Origin: Symploca sp. SIO2C1
GTDB taxonomy: Bacteria; Cyanobacteriota; Cyanobacteriia; Cyanobacteriales; Coleofasciculaceae
DNA: 34,103 bases
Assembly: GCA_010692635.1 (NCBI GenBank)
Contig: JAAHGL010000015.1
Coordinates: 1 to 34,103, forward strand
Reading direction: 5' to 3'
Shown here: positions 6,890 to 21,741 of the stretch, one piece after another
Numbering within the stretch: the first letter of the stretch is position 1
How the letters are laid out: every line of letters starts with the position of its first letter
Translations under genes and position numbers: made by a program
Notes under the pieces: model-generated
Told to the model about the DNA's origin: nothing
Database searches by the model: none
Seen by the model: only the letters and a program-made list of their open reading frames with translations

Positions 6890-7306
6890 ATGAAACCCCA
6901 ACGCACCCGCTCTCAACAACGCATTTTGAATTTGCTCTCCAAGTTGAATCGTGCTATTTCTGCCCAGGATCTTTATGTCGAACTACGCAAAGGTGGCAAA
7001 AGTATAGGTTTAGCAACAGTATACCGCTCCCTAGAAACTCTCAAACTTAGGGGGGTAGTACAAATGCGGAAACGTCCTAATGGAGAATCTCTCTACAGTT
7101 CCGTACAAAAGGATCAACATCACCTTACTTGCCTCAATTGCGGGGAGTCGATTCCCATCAATGAATGTCCTGTACATCAACTCGAGACTGAGCTGCAAAC
7201 TAGCCACCAATTCAAGATCTACTACCACACTTTGGAGTTTTTTGGTTTATGCGATCGCTGTGGTGTTGATCATACTCTGGAGAAACACGGAAAAGCTAAT
7301 GGCTAA
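6890..7306 (+). CDS. zur: Fur-family metalloregulator, probably zinc-responsive Zur (FurB)
   Basis: A 138-residue Fur-family repressor. The winged-helix DNA-binding domain covers about residues 5-65 with the recognition segment IGLATVYRSLETLKLRG (39-55). Metal-site residues follow: HH (77-78) and two CxxC pairs, C81/C84 (CLNCG) and C121/C124 (CDRCG), that form the structural zinc site. SAQDLYVELR and GESIPINECPVH resemble cyanobacterial FurB, shown to be Zur in Anabaena, rather than FurA or PerR; that subfamily call is from memory. The last residues (KANG) and the TAA stop are encoded by the start of a heptamer array, so the original C-terminus may have been a little different. The copper ATPase gene is close but on the other side of purSQ, and nothing links them directly. 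Confidence 0.8.
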   Translation: MKPQRTRSQQRILNLLSKLNRAISAQDLYVELRKGGKSIGLATVYRSLETLKLRGVVQMRKRPNGESLYSSVQKDQHHLTCLNCGESIPINECPVHQLETELQTSHQFKIYYHTLEFFGLCDRCGVDHTLEKHGKANG

Positions 7307-7531
7307 TGGCTAATGGTTAATGGCTAATGGTTAATGGCTAATGGCTAATGGTTAATGGCTAATGGTTAATGGCTAATGGCTAATGGCTAATGGCTAATGG
7401 CTAATGGCTAATGGTTAATGGCTAATGGTTAATGGTTAATGGCTAATGGTTAATGGCTAATGGCTAATGGTTAATGGCTAATGGTTAATGGCTAATGGCT
7501 AATGGTTAATGGTTAATGGCTAATGGTTAAT
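7294..7531. repeat. 34-unit G(C/T)TAATG heptamer array at the 3' end of zur
   Basis: 34 uninterrupted copies of GCTAATG or GTTAATG, differing only at the second base. Read as C/T, the order by hand is CCCT CTCCTCTC CCCCCTCTT CTCCTCTCC TTCT. The first copies encode the end of the Zur-like protein and its stop. A few units of the same heptamer recur at 10431-10457. Confidence 0.95.
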
Positions 7532-7615
7532 GGCCATTGGTGACAAGTTAAGGCAAAAATGTCGTTGTCAAGGGAACAGGGAGCTGGGGGAGTCAAACCA
7601 GATTGTCAATTAAAA

Positions 7616-7624: not shown

Positions 7625-7764
7625 TTCTCAATAGTTGACTGCGTAAATTGAATTGAGTTAGACTTTAGCTGATCGCGCTCTATGGCGATGATCATTTTTT
7701 ATGCTGCTACTGCAAACTCGGCGGTAGAGTATGTCAATCACTTACTATATTGAGACAGATAGTT

Positions 7765-7920
7765 ATGTCACAGTTGAAACAAGCTCGTGCTAGTAAGATT
7801 CAAATCGAAGTCCGGGAGATTTCTCATACAACCCGTAAAAACAACATATCTCAATTAAATACTGATGCTGATGGGGGAGATCTAAATACTGATGCTGACG
7901 GAGGAGATTTAACTACTTGA
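7765..7920 (+). CDS. Small repeat peptide, candidate RiPP-like precursor
   Basis: A 51-residue ORF. Residues 1-30 (starting MSQLKQARASKIQIEVREIS) are charged and leader-like. Residues 31-39 and 40-48 are two exact copies of LNTDADGGD, followed by LTT and the stop. At DNA level the copies (7855-7881 and 7882-7908) differ at three positions, all synonymous (TTA/CTA, GAT/GAC, GGG/GGA), which argues for selection on the peptide. There is no Cys, Ser/Thr-rich or GG-protease site beyond the motif itself; the Asp/Asn/Thr-rich repeat would suit hydroxylation or ester/amide crosslinking. The next genes on the same strand are a JmjC oxygenase and a sucrase/ferredoxin-like protein, with a MITE-A in between. 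No strong ribosome binding site is visible (GAGACAG about 10 bases upstream). I do not recognise the family; the precursor role is inference. Confidence 0.55.
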   Translation: MSQLKQARASKIQIEVREISHTTRKNNISQLNTDADGGDLNTDADGGDLTT

Positions 7921-7950
7921 AGCGGATGAAAGTGATCATCTGAGCAACGA

Positions 7951-8054
7951 CTAGTGCAGCGCGGCAAAAGTAACTGACCAGTTTGAGATGATTAGAATCC
8001 TTACTCTATAAGCATTCTAAATTCTAAATTCTAAATTCCGCGCAGCGGCACTAG
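7951..8054 (+). mobile_element. MITE-A, complete copy 1 (104 bp)
   Basis: Terminal CTAGTGCAGCGCGG and CCGCGCAGCGGCACTAG are imperfect inverted repeats. The interior holds CAGTTTGAGAT, ATCCTTACTCTATAAGCATT and ATTCTAA heptamers. It has no coding capacity and lies between the peptide gene and the JmjC gene. Confidence 0.85.
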
Positions 8055-8151
8055 TATATACTAATTTTTCTCAAACTTTGCTCCAATGTTTTTTGGAGCG
8101 AAGTAGGTTATATTACTTTTTTTGTTTTCTTATTGAAAAATATTTTTATTA

Positions 8152-9306
8152 ATGCTATCCCTAGCCCAAATATTAAAACCTTATAAGGTAGAAGAATTTT
8201 TAGAGAATTATTGGACAAGCCAAGCTCTCTATGTATCTAGCCAGGGAGAGAGAAAGTTTGACTACCTATTTTCCTGGGAACAACTCAACTATTTATTGAA
8301 CTACCATCAATTCCAATACCCGGAACTGCGTCTAGCTTTAGATGGCAAGGTTTTAGATAAAAGCGAAAATGCGAACCTGCTCAAGTTATGCCAAGAAGGT
8401 GCTACGTTAATAATTAACGGGGTACATAAACTAATTCCAGAAATCGCTCAGTTCACATCATCCCTGAGATACGACATTGGCTATAGTACTCAAGTAAATG
8501 CTTACTGTTCCTGGCCAGGAAGACAAGGTTTTTCACCTCACTACGATACCCATGAAGTTTTTATCTTACAGATAGAAGGGAAAAAACAGTGGCGGGTATT
8601 TACAGATACGAAGAAATATCCTTTACCTGAGCAAAAATCATCCTCTCTTGTGCCTCCAGAGGGAGAACCGGATTTGAGCTGTATCCTAAATCCAGGGGAT
8701 GTACTCTACATTCCAAGAGGCTATTGGCACTATGCGATCGCTCTAGATGAACCTTCCCTACATCTTACTTTAGGAGTGCATTGCCAAACAGGTATTGATT
8801 TTCTAGAGTGGTTAGTTACTGAATTACAACAGCAAGAAGAGTGGCGTAAAAGCTTGCCCTTGCGTACAGAAGCTGCTCCTGTAGCAGCTTCTATAGAAAA
8901 ATTAATTGCAGATTTAAATCAATATCTTACTGATCCTACTCTGGCCCAAGAGTATATTAACTATCTTGATAGTTTAGGGAAGCCAGCAGCTAGATACTCT
9001 TTACCTTATCAAGCTGGGTTTCATCTATTTTCCCAGGGAGCAGCAACTCAGTTCAAAAGTGCTAAATTGCAGCGGGTGAAAATTGCTGAACTTTCTGACA
9101 ATAGTGGGTACAAAATTATCACTTCAGGAAAAGAGATTTCCCTCAGAGGGGTGAATCGAAACCTACTGGAAAACTTATTTAATGGAGAGACTTTTACTGG
9201 AAATGATGTGATGCAATGGTTACCCGACTACGATTGGGAGCTTGACATTGTCCCTCTATTATCTCGTTTGGTACTAGAGGGAGTGATTTTTGTTGACTCT
9301 AAATGA
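8152..9306 (+). CDS. JmjC/cupin-fold 2-oxoglutarate Fe(II) oxygenase (ribosomal oxygenase-like)
   Basis: A 384-residue protein of the Cupin_4/JmjC group that includes bacterial YcfD (RoxA) and human MINA53/NO66, which hydroxylate residues in ribosomal proteins. The iron-binding triad is visible as H130-x-D132 (SPHYDTHEVF) and H193 (RGYWHYAI); FILQIEGKKQWRVF and LNPGDVLYIPRG are the characteristic cupin strands. The C-terminal half (about 240-384) resembles the dimerisation and winged-helix region of such enzymes. The family acts on peptide side chains, so the upstream repeat peptide is a plausible substrate, though L16-type ribosomal hydroxylation is the alternative. It is 13 bp upstream of the next gene and very likely cotranscribed with it. 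The ATG has an A/T-rich leader without a clear Shine-Dalgarno sequence. Confidence 0.85.
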   Translation: MLSLAQILKPYKVEEFLENYWTSQALYVSSQGERKFDYLFSWEQLNYLLNYHQFQYPELRLALDGKVLDKSENANLLKLCQEGATLIINGVHKLIPEIAQFTSSLRYDIGYSTQVNAYCSWPGRQGFSPHYDTHEVFILQIEGKKQWRVFTDTKKYPLPEQKSSSLVPPEGEPDLSCILNPGDVLYIPRGYWHYAIALDEPSLHLTLGVHCQTGIDFLEWLVTELQQQEEWRKSLPLRTEAAPVAASIEKLIADLNQYLTDPTLAQEYINYLDSLGKPAARYSLPYQAGFHLFSQGAATQFKSAKLQRVKIAELSDNSGYKIITSGKEISLRGVNRNLLENLFNGETFTGNDVMQWLPDYDWELDIVPLLSRLVLEGVIFVDSK

Positions 9307-9319
9307 AACCTAAAAAACA

Positions 9320-10330
9320 ATGAATCCTTTTTTCTGTGCGGAAGCTTCACGACAAGCAGATGAAGATATTATTGGCAGTGGTACGAATTACTCAACCTAT
9401 ATTTTGGTTGAGTGTCCGACTCCGTGGGCAGCTAATGCTTTTGATTCTAAATCTTTGCCTAATAATCTCAAAACTCTAGTCGAGGAGGTGAAGCAATCTC
9501 AGCGTTCGATCAGATTTTTATTATTAGCACCGAATAAATCTCAACCAACTAACGGTACAAAAGTCTTAATTTTTGAACAAGAACAAGGAGGGTTGAGTCG
9601 GGGTTACCAAAAACATGAGTTTAATGTTGCCCAGATTGAGCAGGTAGCAGGAATTGTTGAGCAATATTTAGCAGGTGAGTCGCCAGATTGTGAAGAGGAA
9701 ACCGATGAGACACGAGATATTTTAGTCTGTACTCACGGTAGCCATGATAAATGTTGTGCGCGGTATGGTAATCCTTTTTACCGGGAAGCATTAAAGATTG
9801 TTGCAGAGTTATCCTTAAGTAAGGTTAGGATTTGGCAAGCGAGTCATTTTGGTGGTCATCGGTTTGCTCCAACAGCTATTGATTTTCCAGATGGCAGATA
9901 CTACGGCGGTTTAAAGCGAGATTCATTCATCTCCATTTTAACAAGAACAGGTGATATCGAATGTTTGAAAAAGGTTTATCGGGGCTGGAGTATTTTACCA
10001 ACTTCTATGCAAGTTTTGGAGAGAGAGTTAATCCTCTTATCTGGGTGGGATTGGTTTCACTACAAAGTTACGGGCAGAATTCTTAAGCAAAGCTTTAATA
10101 ATAGTTTTATCAAAGCTGAGCTAACCTTTGAAAAGCCGGATAGCTCAATCTACACTTATCGAGCTCAATTAGTCAGAGACGAAAATAAAACCATGCGACT
10201 CCGGGGATCTTGTGGTGCAATGAAGGAGTCAGAGTTTGTCAAATATTATGTAGATAACCTCACAGAAAGCAGCGGGAAGCCTACTCCTTTCGACATCTCC
10301 AAAAACCCTGATTTTGGCACGGTGGCATAA
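9320..10330 (+). CDS. Sucrase/ferredoxin-like (thioredoxin-fold [2Fe-2S]) protein
   Basis: A 336-residue protein of the Suc_Fer-like family, whose C-terminal thioredoxin-like ferredoxin domain binds an iron-sulfur cluster. Visible features are the N-terminal FFCAEASRQADEDIIGSG and PWAANAF, then CTHGSHDKCCARYG (C137, C145, C146) and WQASHFGGHRFAPT (172-185), the conserved family signature. Biochemical function is poorly known; redox transfer is the usual inference. It follows the JmjC gene by 13 bp on the same strand, so the two form an operon and may act together on one substrate. The last 100 residues are less conserved in my recollection and have no motif I can name. Confidence 0.85.
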   Translation: MNPFFCAEASRQADEDIIGSGTNYSTYILVECPTPWAANAFDSKSLPNNLKTLVEEVKQSQRSIRFLLLAPNKSQPTNGTKVLIFEQEQGGLSRGYQKHEFNVAQIEQVAGIVEQYLAGESPDCEEETDETRDILVCTHGSHDKCCARYGNPFYREALKIVAELSLSKVRIWQASHFGGHRFAPTAIDFPDGRYYGGLKRDSFISILTRTGDIECLKKVYRGWSILPTSMQVLERELILLSGWDWFHYKVTGRILKQSFNNSFIKAELTFEKPDSSIYTYRAQLVRDENKTMRLRGSCGAMKESEFVKYYVDNLTESSGKPTPFDISKNPDFGTVA

Positions 10331-10396: not shown

Positions 10397-10550
10397 AATA
10401 AATAACACACTCTTGAGAAACACGCTCCAAGCTAATGGCTAATGGCTAATGGCTAATCTCTGAATAAATACCGAGTCTCCGAGTCAGGCAACAGGGAAGA
10501 GAATTGTTTCTCTCATTCAATTGGGTGCGCGAAGCGCTCCTCAGGAGCTC

Positions 10551-10817
10551 ATGAACAATCAAGAACTAGAGCAACAACTCCTCGGCCTCGATTTAGCCCA
10601 AAGGATTCACATCCTCCAACTTTTGGCTCAAAGCCTGACACTACCCTCAGCATCAGAGCTATCCCAATCCCCTAATGAACTTGATTTAAGCCGCGATAGG
10701 GAAGCGCTGTTGCAAGTAGATCGCAGCCCTCAGCATCCCCTACGGGGAATCCCCATTACAATTCCTCCAGATTTTGATGAATCTATGCCTGAATTATGGG
10801 ATGCTTTGGAACAATGA
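10551..10817 (+). CDS. Antitoxin of a VapBC-like pair (DUF2281-like)
   Basis: An 88-residue protein, MNNQELEQQLLGLDLAQRIH at its start and IPPDFDESMPELWDALEQ at its end. The PPDFDxxMPELWxAL tail is characteristic of small cyanobacterial antitoxins partnered with PIN toxins. ATG 10551 is chosen because CAGGAG lies 5 bases upstream; an upstream TTG at 10521 would only add a low-quality extension. Its stop overlaps the ATG of the toxin in ATGA, the usual coupling for such pairs. The toxin is interrupted by an insertion element, so this may be an orphan antitoxin in effect. Confidence 0.7.
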   Translation: MNNQELEQQLLGLDLAQRIHILQLLAQSLTLPSASELSQSPNELDLSRDREALLQVDRSPQHPLRGIPITIPPDFDESMPELWDALEQ

Positions 10818-10823
10818 TTTTAC

Positions 10824-12200
10824 TAGAAAACCAAACACTGAAAGCCCCGCGTCTTTAGACCGGGGATGAAAGTGACTAGCGACTTTAGTCGCCGTGAAAA
10901 AGATTGAATTATAAATTGACGGTTTTCGCTGGATGTGTTAGCGTAATTATTTAATAGAATAGGTCGAGTTCTGATGATAATAGTAGAGCTTAAAGCCTAC
11001 GGTAAGCCCCATAAATATCAAGCAATAGACGAAGCAATTCGGACGGTTAAATTTATCCGTAATAGCTGCATTCGTTTATGGATGGATAACAAAGGGACAG
11101 GGAAATACGACTTTAGCAAGTACTGCAAGATACTAGCTAAAGAATTCCCTTTTGCCAATGAGTTAAATTCTACTGCTCGACAAGCTGCGGCTGAAAGAGC
11201 ATGGTCATCAATTTCTCGCTTCTTGGAAAACTGCAAGAAAAAAGTACCTGGGAAGAAAGGCTATCCCCGTTTTCAGAAACACTGTAGGTCGGTTGAGTAT
11301 AAGCAATCAGGATGGAAAATTTCTTCTGAGACAAAGTCAATCACTTTCAGTGACAAGAAAGGAATCGGAAAGCTTAAACTTAAAGGTACCTGGGATTTGT
11401 GGCGTTTCGACAAAAAGCAAATCAAACGGGTTCGCATTGTAAAAAGGGCGGATGGCTACTATGTTCAGTTTTGCATCTGTGTCGATGTAAAAGAACAACT
11501 AGAGCCAGTTGATGCCACTGTAGGGTTAGATGTAGGGCTCAAAGAATTCTTTACCGACTCTAAAGGCAACACCGAACCTAATCCACGTTTTTATAGAACA
11601 GGAGAAAAGCGTCTCAAGTTTTATCAACGCCGAGTATCTCGCAAAAAGAAAGGCTCATCTAACCGCAAGAAAGCCGTTAATAAATTAGGCAGACAGCATC
11701 TTAAAATAAGTAGGCAGCGTGAAGAACATGCTAAGAGACTAGCACGTTGCGTAATCCGGTCTAACGACTTGGTCGCCTATGAAGATTTAAGAGTCAAAAA
11801 TTTGGTTAAAAACCATTGTTTAGCTACATCTATTAACGATGCAGGTTGGTATCAATTTAGAAAATGGTTAGAGCATTTTGGTCAGAAGTTTGGTAGAGTC
11901 ACCGTTGCGGTCAACCCTGCCTATACAAGCCAAAATTGTTCAGAATGCGGCGAGGTAGTAAAGAAGTCACTCTCAACCAGAACTCACGCCTGCGAATGTG
12001 GCTGTGAACTAGACCGAGATCACAACGCCGCAATCAATATCTTAAAAAGAGCCTTGGGTACGGTGGGGCACACCGGAACCTGGATCATAGATCCGAACTC
12101 TTCGGGAGATCTGGCCTCTACTGTTCTTGGTTCCGGCCAGGTTCAGCAAGTCGGGTCGTTGAGCGAAGAATCCCCGCGCCTTTAGGCCGGGGAGTGTCAA
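10824..12200 (+). mobile_element. IS200/IS605-type element carrying only tnpB
   Basis: The boundaries are deduced from the split toxin gene: removing 10824-12200 restores the reading frame with no target duplication, as expected for IS200/IS605 transposition. The left flank ends in TTAC, a known IS605-group target type. Subterminal hairpins are CCCCGCGTCTTTAGACCGGGG near the left end and CCCCGCGCCTTTAGGCCGGGG near the right end. There is a second left hairpin, GCGACTTTAGTCGC (10880-10893). No tnpA is present, so mobility would need a transposase in trans. Confidence 0.85.
10974..12185 (+). CDS. tnpB: TnpB RNA-guided nuclease of an IS200/IS605 element
   Basis: A 403-residue OrfB/TnpB protein. 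An N-terminal helix-turn-helix-like region precedes the RuvC-like nuclease: D186 in GLDVGLKEF, E270 in VAYEDLRV and D347/D349 in CELDRDHNAAINILKRA. The zinc ribbon is CSECG (322-326) with CECGC (340-344). All catalytic positions are present, so it looks intact. TnpB proteins are programmable DNA nucleases guided by an RNA from the element's 3' end. The stop lies inside the right-end hairpin. It starts at an ATG after an A/T-rich leader. Confidence 0.93.
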   Translation: MIIVELKAYGKPHKYQAIDEAIRTVKFIRNSCIRLWMDNKGTGKYDFSKYCKILAKEFPFANELNSTARQAAAERAWSSISRFLENCKKKVPGKKGYPRFQKHCRSVEYKQSGWKISSETKSITFSDKKGIGKLKLKGTWDLWRFDKKQIKRVRIVKRADGYYVQFCICVDVKEQLEPVDATVGLDVGLKEFFTDSKGNTEPNPRFYRTGEKRLKFYQRRVSRKKKGSSNRKKAVNKLGRQHLKISRQREEHAKRLARCVIRSNDLVAYEDLRVKNLVKNHCLATSINDAGWYQFRKWLEHFGQKFGRVTVAVNPAYTSQNCSECGEVVKKSLSTRTHACECGCELDRDHNAAINILKRALGTVGHTGTWIIDPNSSGDLASTVLGSGQVQQVGSLSEESPRL

Positions 12201-12216
12201 TTGACACTCATGTTTG
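12060..12216 (+). ncRNA. Predicted omega RNA (reRNA) region with guide
   Basis: By analogy with known TnpB systems the guide RNA scaffold covers the tnpB 3' end and right-end hairpin, here about 12060-12200, and the guide is the flanking host sequence from 12201. That guide would be TTGACACTCATGTTTG, inside the toxin gene. The matching target-adjacent motif would be the left flank TTTTAC. No structure prediction was run; the limits are approximate. Confidence 0.35.
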
Positions 12217-12607
12217 GCTTTGGTGGCTCCATACCCCAGAACAGCTTTCTGAACGTAGCCGTACCCTGTTAACCATAGGCGAAAACCAAAACACCCTTAT
12301 AGTTTCTGCTATTTCCGTTTGGGAAATTGCACTCAAGCATAGTGCAGGAAAACTACCACTTCCCCTTTCCGTCAATGAATGGTTTGCACTTGCAAAAACT
12401 CGACCTGGAATCACCATAGAACCACTTGATCCACTAGATGCAATCGCCAGCACTCAATTACCCGGCGACTTCCACAAAGATCCAGCTGATCGTATTATTG
12501 TTGCACTCGCCTACCGCCGCAATATAGAACTCATTACCTGTGATCAAAAGATTCTCAACTATCCACACGTCAAAACACTTTGGTAAGTGATCGCTCAGAA
12601 GATCGTA

Positions 12608-12717: not shown

Positions 12718-13227
12718 CTAATCTCCAGATTTCTCCGAAGAAGGTAGCAAGTTAAGGCTCATGAAGATGTGGGGGATATTGAGAAAATCAAAGGGTTCAC
12801 CATTGGTAGAGAATCCCAGGCGTTGATAGAAGTCAAGAGCAGTCATCCGACTCTTTAATCTGATACTTTTTAGCTGCTTTGCTTGAGCTTTTTCGATTAG
12901 TTTCTGGATCAATTTTGTCCCAATTCCTTGGTGGCGAAACTCAGGTAAAACGCAGACATAAGCAATGCTGCCTATTTCTGGAGATAGTTCTCTGAGTCTA
13001 GCAGAACCAACGATTGTGCGTTGATCGCATACAGCAACTACATGAAAGGCACTAGAATCATATTTATCCTGTTCTGTTCCTTGTACCATCCCCAAAGGTG
13101 CTCTGAGGACAAGCCACCTTTGATAGTACATCTCCTCTAGTTCTTGTTGATTCTGGATCGGGCGTACTTGGAGATTGACTATGGTTTTGTTAGCTGAGTT
13201 GTTTGTCATCCTTAGCTTGCTTGTCAT
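12718..13227 (-). CDS. GNAT-family N-acetyltransferase
   Basis: A 169-residue acetyl-CoA-dependent acyltransferase. The acetyl-CoA-binding motif A is LPEFRHQGIGTKLIQKLIEKA, preceded by the strand IGSIAYVCV and followed by FYQRLGF near the end. The N-terminal MYYQRWLVLRAPLGM resembles ElaA-like members. The start may be ATG 13227 or the ATG six codons later. The substrate is unknown. It lies on the same strand as the molybdenum hydroxylase operon but is separated from it by a MITE-C and an array, so there is no sign of coregulation. Confidence 0.85.
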   Translation of the reverse strand: MTSKLRMTNNSANKTIVNLQVRPIQNQQELEEMYYQRWLVLRAPLGMVQGTEQDKYDSSAFHVVAVCDQRTIVGSARLRELSPEIGSIAYVCVLPEFRHQGIGTKLIQKLIEKAQAKQLKSIRLKSRMTALDFYQRLGFSTNGEPFDFLNIPHIFMSLNLLPSSEKSGD

Positions 13228-15762: not shown

Positions 15763-15873
15763 CTAGAGCAGCGCGGCAAAAGTAACTGACCAGTTTGAGA
15801 TCGTTAGAATCCTTACTCTATAAGCATTCTAAATTCTAAATTCTAAATTCTAAATTCCGCGCAGCGGCACTAG
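15763..15873 (+). mobile_element. MITE-A, complete copy 2 (111 bp)
   Basis: Nearly identical to copy 1, but with one extra ATTCTAA heptamer near the right end, which accounts exactly for the 7-bp length difference. It is inserted inside the molybdenum hydroxylase operon, between the FAD and Mo subunit genes. Confidence 0.88.
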
Positions 15874-19446: not shown

Positions 19447-19614
19447 CCTCATAGCATAAAAATATCGTTAAATAGCATAAGTTCTATTTTAGTAACCAAT
19501 TAGCTTTCTCTCCTGGGGAAGTGCTTTCATTAAACATAGACAGGGATGCAAGGGAGATTACGGTTACTCAGGGACACCTCTGGCAATTCCCAAACAAAAA
19601 AACAACTAACAAAT

Positions 19615-21741
19615 ATGAAAAAAATTATTTCCAGCATTCTCTTAACAAGTTGCTTCTGTGGAATTACAGGGATTAGTTACTTCCCCAAGGCAACACCAGC
19701 AGCAGCACAAGTTTCTCCCACAGGGGAACTATTGTATAACTTCTACGGTCGCTCCATTCCTTTGAGAGTCCGCCAAGATGCTGTTGCCGTTAGCTTTAAA
19801 CCAGCTGGGAGATCCCGAAGTGGAGCTCCAGTGGAAGCCTCCTATTTAAAATTGCAGCGAGACTTGCAGGGTGGAACCCGTAGCCTATCGGGGAATAATC
19901 TAGAAGTTAAGCCGTTGGGATTGCGCTATGCTTTGGTAAACTTGCCTGCTGGAGCCCGTAGTTCTCCTGCTGCTGTTACTCAACGAGTGCAAAGACTACC
20001 TTATGTAGCAGGAACACTCCCTGTCCTCTCCCGTAGCGATCGCGATGAGACAATTGTTCTACCTAATGAAATTGTAGTTGCTTTCGAGCCAGAAGTAGCT
20101 GACCAGGCAGCAGTGCAGGCAATTCTCAATCGCTATAACTTAGAGATCATCAAACCCCTGCGCTTTACCAAAAATCGCTATTTGGTGCGCTCTCAAGTAG
20201 AGTCTGGTACAGCCATCCTCGCTATTGCCAATCGCCTCAATACCGTGCCTGGAATCAGTTCTGCTACGCCAAATTTTGTCCAATCAGTGACTTACAGTAA
20301 TCCAGGAATGGGTTTTGGGCATCCTAGCTTTACTGACACTCCTCGAGCTACTGACTCCCTCAAGCAAATGTTAAATGAATTGGAGGAGCAACCTAGTCCA
20401 ACCCCATTTAAGACAGAACTCCTTCCCTTGCAATGGCACCTCAACAGTATACCCCTGCGAGGCAAGTTACTGCCTCGTACTGATATTCGAGCCATTGAAG
20501 CTTGGCAACAGAGTAACCAAGGTAAGGGCGTGGTGGTAGCAGTAATTGATAGTTTGATTCAATGGGACCACCCGGATTTAAATGGTAATGTCTACAAAGT
20601 AGAAAATGTCCCTAATCCTTTACCAGGGGAAGTTCACGGCTGGGATTTTGCTCAAGATGATCCAGATACCCGGATTAGTGAAGAAGAATTGGCTACTTTG
20701 CTGCCAGATTTCCAGAATACCTTTAGTTTGTCTGATGAGAAGTTACTGGAGCAATACGCCGATTTAGCTGGTTTTATTCCCTTTATGGTTCCTGATTTGC
20801 CAGAATCAGAAATTCCCTCTTTCTTGCGCAACCTCATCCGTAATAAGATTGCTGGTGAGTTTCATGGTACTTGGTCAGCAGGGGTAGTTGCTGCTAATCC
20901 TCAAGGAGAAGGAGGAGTCATCGGAGTCTCTCCCCAAGCAAAAATTCTACCAATTCGAGTTTTTGGTTTAGGGGGTCAAACTTCTCCTGAAGTCATTTCC
21001 CAAGCAATTCGCTATGCTGCTGCTAGAGGTGTTGATGCGATTAACCTAAGTTTAGGAGGACTTTTACCTAGTCCCGAACAAGTAGAGGCAATTTTTGAAG
21101 TACTAGATGCCAATCCCAACCTCGTAATAATTGCTTCTGCTGGTAATGAGAGTTTGGATGGTGTAGCTTTTCCCGCAGCAATTCCCGGTGTCATTTCCGT
21201 AGGAGCCACAAATCTTTCTGGTAAACGAGCTGCCTACAGCAGTTATGGCGGTAGGCTAGATGTGGTAGCCCCTGGCGGCGATACTTCAGATTCAAAAAGG
21301 GGAGGGATTCTAACTACCGGAGGTACAGGGATAGATGGTTTCTGGCAAGGAATTACTGTGCCAGATTATAGCTGGGGTCATGCATTAGACTCTAAAGGTC
21401 AGTACGTGCAAGTACAAGGTACATCCTTCGCTGCACCTACTGTCTCTGGGGTAGTAGCTTTGATGAGGGGAGAAAATCCTAACCTTAGTCGCGATCGCAT
21501 AATTGCTATCCTGAAAGAAACTTCTAATTATCAAGGGTTGAACCTATCGAAAGCAGATACCAGAGCTTACCGCCTACAAAGGGAATTAGGCTTTGGCAGT
21601 GCTCCCAATTTTCCCTTTCTACGACCCTCCGGTGTCTTCCCTTTACCTGAACCCATACCAGCTAGCCAATACTTCTATGGTAGTGGTTTAGTTAATGCCG
21701 AAGCAGCAGTTAATGAAGTCAAGCGATCGCTCCAGAACTGA
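19615..21741 (+). CDS. Secreted subtilisin-like (S8) serine protease
   Basis: A 708-residue exported protease from ATG 19615. The start is chosen because MKKIISSILLTSCFCGITG begins a signal peptide (basic n-region, hydrophobic core, cleavage near PAAAQ); an ATG at 19546 would add 23 odd residues. An N-terminal prodomain-like region (about 40-240) precedes the catalytic domain. The triad is Asp in VVAVIDSLIQWDHPDL, His in GEFHGTWSAGVVAANP, and Ser in GTSFAAPTVSGVVALM. The Asp motif has DSL instead of the common D-S/T-G, which is unusual. SAGNE carries the oxyanion asparagine. An insertion of about 65 residues (RISEEELATLLPDF and on) separates the Asp and His motifs. The role is extracellular or periplasmic proteolysis. 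It is followed at once by a heptamer array. Confidence 0.92.
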   Translation: MKKIISSILLTSCFCGITGISYFPKATPAAAQVSPTGELLYNFYGRSIPLRVRQDAVAVSFKPAGRSRSGAPVEASYLKLQRDLQGGTRSLSGNNLEVKPLGLRYALVNLPAGARSSPAAVTQRVQRLPYVAGTLPVLSRSDRDETIVLPNEIVVAFEPEVADQAAVQAILNRYNLEIIKPLRFTKNRYLVRSQVESGTAILAIANRLNTVPGISSATPNFVQSVTYSNPGMGFGHPSFTDTPRATDSLKQMLNELEEQPSPTPFKTELLPLQWHLNSIPLRGKLLPRTDIRAIEAWQQSNQGKGVVVAVIDSLIQWDHPDLNGNVYKVENVPNPLPGEVHGWDFAQDDPDTRISEEELATLLPDFQNTFSLSDEKLLEQYADLAGFIPFMVPDLPESEIPSFLRNLIRNKIAGEFHGTWSAGVVAANPQGEGGVIGVSPQAKILPIRVFGLGGQTSPEVISQAIRYAAARGVDAINLSLGGLLPSPEQVEAIFEVLDANPNLVIIASAGNESLDGVAFPAAIPGVISVGATNLSGKRAAYSSYGGRLDVVAPGGDTSDSKRGGILTTGGTGIDGFWQGITVPDYSWGHALDSKGQYVQVQGTSFAAPTVSGVVALMRGENPNLSRDRIIAILKETSNYQGLNLSKADTRAYRLQRELGFGSAPNFPFLRPSGVFPLPEPIPASQYFYGSGLVNAEAAVNEVKRSLQN

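Follow-up and report, generated by a model that had tools for sequence, protein, structure and literature searches.

Bacterial JmjC proteins are known chiefly as ribosomal oxygenases, of which NO66, MINA53 and YcfD share a JmjC fold with an HxD...H metal triad, and among ribosomally synthesized and post-translationally modified peptides (RiPPs) the enzyme CinX hydroxylates aspartate (Asp) in a precursor. Here we describe a short peptide gene followed by a JmjC oxygenase gene in a 34,103-nucleotide stretch of DNA from the cyanobacterium Symploca sp. SIO2C1 (assembly GCA_010692635.1, contig JAAHGL010000015.1, positions 1 to 34,103 of the forward strand), the whole of which we call the window. 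Together with a gene for a sucrase/ferredoxin-like protein (Suc_Fer), the two form a cassette that is conserved, RiPP-like and apparently undescribed so far; in the open-licence PMC literature, a scope outside which most subscription papers fall, we recognised no description of the peptide/JmjC system.

In fold, metal triad and domain layout the window JmjC is like NO66, MINA53 and YcfD, and unlike them it belongs to a clade that mostly follows a short Asp-rich open reading frame (ORF), with no indication of a ribosomal substrate. A JmjC enzyme combined with a ribosomal precursor peptide is also found in biphenomycin biosynthesis, where, in the part of the source available, the gamma-ornithine hydroxylase BipG hydroxylates ornithine in the precursor (PMC12707348); within the partly available literature searched, BipG is the one demonstrated JmjC RiPP hydroxylase that we met. 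The same available text places a multinuclear non-heme iron-dependent oxidative enzyme (MNIO), a B12 radical S-adenosylmethionine (SAM) enzyme and a TldD-type protease in the biphenomycin cluster (PMC12707348), whereas here we saw only PmbA/TldD genes, at 9 of 49 close loci whose neighbours are partly identified and for which no profile search for MNIO or radical SAM enzymes was made. PesHI and SmaO, as far as their available texts go, carry out Asp beta-hydroxylation in RiPP precursor peptides, Asp hydroxylation being also what we propose for the window JmjC, and the term JmjC is absent from those texts (PMC13060819, PMC13097080). The parts of the cassette in the window are as follows.

7765 to 7920, plus strand: precursor-like peptide gene of 51 amino acids; its profile matches are all JmjC-linked and its frame is under purifying selection.
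7792 to 7821, plus strand: leader strand SKIQIEVREI (residues 10-19), conserved in close loci; proposed docking element.
7855 to 7908, plus strand: two tandem LNTDADGGD repeats by direct reading, with 1-3 units in relatives; proposed core.
8152 to 9306, plus strand: JmjC oxygenase of 384 amino acids, NO66/MINA53-like; PF08007 at E 2.3e-29; triad H130, D132, H193.
9037 to 9303, plus strand: C-terminal JmjC domain (about residues 296-384), strand-rich and then helical in the secondary structure of the model; candidate leader-docking domain.
9320 to 10330, plus strand: Suc_Fer protein with a predicted thioredoxin-like [2Fe-2S] fold; PF06999 at E 1.4e-32; begins 13 bp after the JmjC stop.

A first-pass annotation of this DNA had reported a 51-residue ORF with a duplicated LNTDADGGD, a JmjC gene with the triad above and a Suc_Fer gene 13 bp further on, and each of these was confirmed at the positions and with the profiles given. 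The product of the peptide gene is MSQLKQARASKIQIEVREISHTTRKNNISQLNTDADGGDLNTDADGGDLTT, with a longer version possible from a TTG at 7750, and its two repeats occupy residues 31-39 and 40-48. D34, D36, G37 and D39 do not vary among the 16 rows of an alignment; the wider peptide set includes exceptions such as Trichodesmium tails. The leader 10-mer, chosen by regular expression, is typically SKIQ[IV]EVK[ED]I, and across 43 close loci it occurs in 21 similar forms against 30 distinct tails. Tails carry a single NVDADGSDVSNE in Microcoleus, two NTDADGGDL-like units in Symploca and Scytonema, and two or three NFDADGGDR-like units in Okeania. With its ribosomal encoding, conserved leader and variable core, the peptide has the apparent make-up of a RiPP precursor.

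We found that the peptide is consistently linked to JmjC. Used as a lone query, the window peptide matched 9 of the 20 genomes in its family and 37 of the 388 in its order, counts that include its own genome, and the 16-row profile matched 42 of the 388. All 42 profile matches lie upstream of a JmjC gene on the same strand, 80-1246 bp away (80-330 bp in 30 pairs and 616-1246 bp in 12, the window included), although the JmjC partner of one linked peptide (G360:C24) is a broken fragment. This count drew on 47 of the 116 JmjC profile rows, tallied by hand, and five of the 47 had no linked peptide (G360:C409, G348, G080, G050 and G004); the G004 row begins at a contig edge, and G080 carries another DGG-type peptide (L211). 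The putative modifying enzyme is in this way genetically linked to the apparent precursor, and the 42/42 linkage supports the earlier suggestion that peptide and JmjC form a RiPP-like pair in which the repeats are the likely substrate. The named close loci overlap with the order genomes (for example, L035 is G005:C112), so the counts are not independent. Rather than JmjC/Suc_Fer pairs generally lacking the peptide, or a frame without conservation, the two patterns that the first-pass annotation had set against itself, we found the peptide in 43/49 close loci, equal to 43/46 evaluable ones once L044, L078 and L081 at contig edges are set aside, together with the marks of purifying selection.

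The ratio of nonsynonymous to synonymous substitution rates (dN/dS) of the peptide is 0.20 in 66 Microcoleus-type pairs, 0.076 in 6 Okeania pairs, 0.39 in 6 Scytonema/Brasilonema pairs and 0.16 in one Symploca pair, and a Moorena pair has no synonymous change; the value of 0.54 for the window/Symploca pair is inflated by a one-residue length difference, the pair being right-aligned. Third codon positions vary most. The frame therefore reads as a protein under purifying selection (dN/dS 0.08-0.39 in the multi-pair groups), which argues against an ORF that arose by chance or serves as a leader element of the mRNA, as does an Rfam scan of the window that returned no match. Small size would suit such a chance frame, as would the outcome of comparing Pfam and NCBIfam models with the window peptide and the other precursors tested, where none scored above cut-off; we regard this explanation as very improbable.

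The enzyme itself is well placed by sequence and by model. An alignment of 36 homologues, picked from the window and the named loci, shows no variation at H130, D132 or H193, and the JmjC profile matched 97 of the 388 order genomes at E 1e-30. The nearest solved structures by sequence are NO66 (E 7.2e-26), MINA53 (2.7e-20) and YxbC (3.5e-15), with Escherichia coli YcfD a far weaker match (E 5.8e-6). The predicted model, with a mean predicted local distance difference test score (pLDDT) of 84.9, superposes on NO66 with Z 27.5 (root-mean-square deviation, rmsd, 6.9; 362 aligned), on MINA53 with Z 26.0 (rmsd 7.7; 370 aligned) and on YcfD with Z 20.2, and NO66 and MINA53 align across model residues 1-384 and 1-382, respectively. 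By sequence and predicted fold the window JmjC is nearer to NO66 and MINA53 than to YcfD, and the YcfD-type label that it was first given has been replaced. These structural matches, all to ribosomal oxygenases, would fit a JmjC that hydroxylates a ribosomal protein, with the peptide a regulator, a decoy or an unrelated co-transcribed small protein. We consider this unlikely, since one enzyme clade is linked to a varied range of short Asp-rich ORFs whose N-termini are of several kinds, and a distribution as patchy as 97/388 is unlike that of a housekeeping ribosomal modification. The genome of the window has a second JmjC gene (L002). At Okeania loci (L070 11150-12440; also L064, L069 and L071-L073) the C-terminal part of JmjC is repeated between JmjC and Suc_Fer, in up to several copies that are partly broken.

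We think it probable that the locus encodes a RiPP-like peptide and a dedicated JmjC oxygenase that hydroxylates Asp, perhaps also asparagine (Asn), in the C-terminal repeats of the peptide. In this scheme the leader strand would be read by the JmjC protein, perhaps via its C-terminal domain, and the Fe(II)/2-oxoglutarate centre formed by the triad would hydroxylate Asp (possibly Asn) side chains in the (N)xDxDGGD repeats, with Suc_Fer acting as an accessory. In RiPP recognition elements a leader strand is added to the sheet of a domain, and by analogy the leader strand of the peptide could extend the sheet of the JmjC C-terminal domain. From the conservation, linkage and selection of the pair, together with the fold and active-site residues of the enzyme, we infer that the peptide is the JmjC substrate, Asp the target and the leader strand the docking site.

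Beyond the close loci we studied 40 distant JmjC loci, our own choice among the JmjC profile rows, at which the peptide profile had no match in 37 and a weak one in three (L212-L214). By eye, a candidate precursor stands upstream of JmjC in 29 of the 40: 19 are acidic or Asn-rich, most with an apparent Sec signal, three have a double-glycine leader and seven are DGG-like. At L179, L183 and L202 the peptide ahead of JmjC has a leader of double-glycine-like type and then long runs of alternating DVDVD repeats. The strict strand motif occurs in 17 of 24 typed distant precursors against a shuffled mean of 0.43 and maximum of 3 (500 shuffles), the 24 coming from 22 of the 29 candidate loci with near-duplicates and the double-glycine type omitted. 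An automatic test for the strand motif plus at least 5 Asp succeeded before JmjC in 15/40 distant and 19/46 close loci (three at contig ends being left out), and before control genes in 0/83 and 0/274, respectively; the close figure is low because single-unit peptides hold only about 3 Asp in the tail. The regular expressions for the motif were written after the peptides had been inspected, and the profile linkage is independent of them. Counting Asp on its own discriminates weakly, with 19/46 close loci against 6/274 controls, 19/40 distant loci against 2/83 and 27/31 actinobacterial loci against 32/506. In Actinobacteria, JmjC relatives 26-36% identical to the window protein have a DGGAD-repeat ORF ahead of them in 31 of 31 loci, ending 53-202 bp before the JmjC match, and 21 of these ORFs share DDDIT near the N-terminus; their leader is unrelated to that of the cyanobacterial peptides.

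Precursor type tracks JmjC phylogeny, with 9 changes (minimum possible 4) against a shuffled mean of 35.9 in a 68-row tree that holds 19 of the 49 close, 8 of the 31 actinobacterial and all 40 distant loci and leaves out L002. The DGG type is not one clade in this tree (5 changes), L209 and L210, two precursor-less JmjC genes found in order genomes, cluster with those of Actinobacteria, and the deep joins are unsure, the branches being long. Two other precursor-less relatives, L178 and L192, lie beside other kinds of genes, perhaps in other biosynthetic clusters; at L192 there is a 927-aa ORF whose end resembles, by eye, an ATP-binding cassette (ABC) transporter ATPase.

Several points weigh against a peptide-directed JmjC hydroxylase. 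Three of the 46 evaluable close loci truly lack the peptide (L061, L062 and L076), 11 of the 40 distant loci have no recognisable precursor, and cores vary widely, including an Asn-Ser-rich tail with few Asp at L193. The cyanobacterial strand motif plus Asp was found in 0 of 31 actinobacterial loci (against 1/506 controls); since the leader strand was not found in Actinobacteria, the trait that the peptides of the two groups share is the Asp-Gly repeat. The predicted fold is that of ribosomal-protein hydroxylases, so the target may be ribosomal, and hydroxylation by the window JmjC is itself our proposal. In the available part of its report, the cupin PbsQ, a relative of BpmG from a cluster related to that of biphenomycin, brought about no further modification when co-expressed (PMC12257519). 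Finally, the window shows no recognisable protease or peptide exporter gene next to the cassette, the subtilase gene at 19546-21741 being 9 kb away.

The last point bears on processing. The earlier statement that no protease lies nearby agrees with what could be recognised beside the cassette in the window and gives way at 9 of the 49 close loci, all of Microcoleus type, where a PmbA/TldD-type peptidase gene stands on the opposite strand about 3-5 kb from the JmjC start, with a second such gene behind the first in 8 of the 9, so that these genes fall about 3-6 kb from JmjC.

L048 13208-16178, strand opposite to the cassette: PmbA/TldD-type genes; also at L046, L053-L056, L059, L060 and L075.

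PmbA/TldD-type peptidases are also general proteins. The TldD-type BipI processes a RiPP, according to the available part of its source (PMC12707348). With no protease recognised beside the cassette in the window, the peptide could be an unprocessed metal-binding protein with DxDxDG loops of calcium or iron type, whose leader is kept and whose affinity is tuned by JmjC hydroxylation, an explanation that overlaps with the RiPP-like one and that we find doubtful. Its DxDG repeats, which we take to resemble calcium loops, would suit this role, and in many distant precursors the strand motif stands, by eye, behind an apparent Sec signal and would be retained when mature; against it, several tails are just 8-12 residues long, the PmbA/TldD-type genes would suit leader removal, and metal binding by the peptide is putative. 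Loci of the Okeania type have transporter genes for DctQ and DctM upstream (12/49 close loci).

The third gene of the cassette is less tightly bound to the other two. The Suc_Fer protein scores 113.8 bits against PF06999, whose curated cut-off is 34.9, its model (pLDDT 86.4) matches the Aquifex thioredoxin-like [2Fe-2S] ferredoxin at E 5.3e-4, and 30 sequences are without exception identical at the putative cluster-ligand residues C6, C137, H139, C145, C146 and H176. It is thus alike in profile, fold and Cys/His pattern to other Suc_Fer-like or thioredoxin-like [2Fe-2S] ferredoxins of PF06999, and unlike them it sits with a JmjC gene and a peptide gene and, at 336 aa, has an extra strand-rich C-terminal part. 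Of the 49 close loci, 43 carry Suc_Fer (43/46 evaluable; L038, L062 and L063 meet contig edges), and it is lacking in L061 (1.4 kb seen), L074 and L076. It lies within about 3 kb of JmjC in only 4 of 40 distant loci, with a fifth about 5 kb downstream, and it follows JmjC in 21 of 31 actinobacterial loci and was not found in 10. A single PF06999 protein was found in the genome of the window, and PF06999 occurs in 167 of 388 order genomes. Among 15 Suc_Fer loci picked from the top of the list rather than at random, five from family f33 (L217-L220 and L223) carry a close Suc_Fer (about 60% identical) with JmjC missing or decayed, and the peptide profile had no match in their genomes, so peptide and JmjC appear to travel together and Suc_Fer can persist alone. 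The first-pass proposal of Suc_Fer as a redox or accessory factor is rejected on these counts in so far as it makes the protein a dedicated partner, and by its occurrence Suc_Fer is a common but dispensable one. It is probably an accessory, redox or iron-handling, mainly with the Asp-Gly (DGG) subtype.

Iron-uptake-like genes adjoin JmjC in one lineage.

L222 4716-9886 (JmjC upstream), L186 3-2576 and L224 1000-3696: TonB-dependent receptor and other iron-uptake-like genes.

In genome G080, genes in a row on one strand encode a DGG-type peptide, JmjC (L211), a TonB-dependent receptor, a periplasmic binding protein of PF01497, a transporter of the major facilitator superfamily (MFS) and a paralogue of Suc_Fer (31% identical). 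In G130 (L186) the peptide, JmjC and Suc_Fer genes are preceded by genes for a TonB receptor and a PF01497 protein, and in G158 (L224) a partial JmjC gene and Suc_Fer adjoin a TonB receptor gene. This adjacency offers a lead that may hint at an iron role; against it, all three genomes belong to family f13, and tblastn with the receptors as queries had no match at the 49 close loci or the 31 actinobacterial ones. Some other Suc_Fer loci (L215, L216 and L226-L229) also have TonB, ExbB, PF01497-like or MFS neighbours. Such MFS neighbours do not on their own point to siderophore export, as H+ antiporter and macrolide-efflux models scored above EntS, all of them below cut-off. We put forward tentatively, as a possibility rather than an expectation, that JmjC enzymes of a RiPP-like superfamily found across Cyanobacteria and Actinobacteria produce poly-(beta-hydroxyaspartate) peptides, with the DGG subtype acting as metal (iron) binders and Suc_Fer as a metal-releasing reductase.

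A JmjC clade that travels with Asp-repeat peptides would yield dozens of testable enzyme-substrate pairs and would account for many short genes that have no family model. If the proposal is true, two genes would suffice as a simple route to acidic peptides that are hydroxylated and likely to bind metals, and one branch of the Suc_Fer family would gain a functional hypothesis.

Two further features of the window lie within or beside the cassette.

7950 to 8055, no strand assigned: MITE-like element (MITE, miniature inverted-repeat transposable element), outside the system, bounded at 7950-7960 and 8045-8055 by terminal inverted repeats of 11 nt.
12718 to 13227, minus strand: GNAT acetyltransferase gene (PF00583), a convergent neighbour whose cluster was found in 39 of 49 close loci.

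The first of these lies in the 231-bp gap between peptide and JmjC, as had been noted earlier, and has at least 40 other matches in the genome, a lower bound because 40 of 506 first-look candidates were scored; a further MITE-like copy stands in the window at 15763-15873. On gene order, the GNAT gene ranks as a fourth conserved neighbour of the cassette, and it is separated from Suc_Fer by the genes at 10521-12586. There, a short ORF (10521-10817) comes first, then an OrfB/TnpB-type transposase gene (10974-12185) and then an ORF with a PIN domain (12194-12586), an arrangement that looks like an insertion of the transposase gene into a toxin-antitoxin-like pair. Upstream of the cassette, a link to Fur through the Fur-like gene at 6890-7306 was dropped, as tblastn over the 49 close loci did not bring up a relative of this gene. 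Directly downstream of that gene, positions 7300-7535 hold, by eye, a long tandem run of TAATGGC/TAATGGT units.

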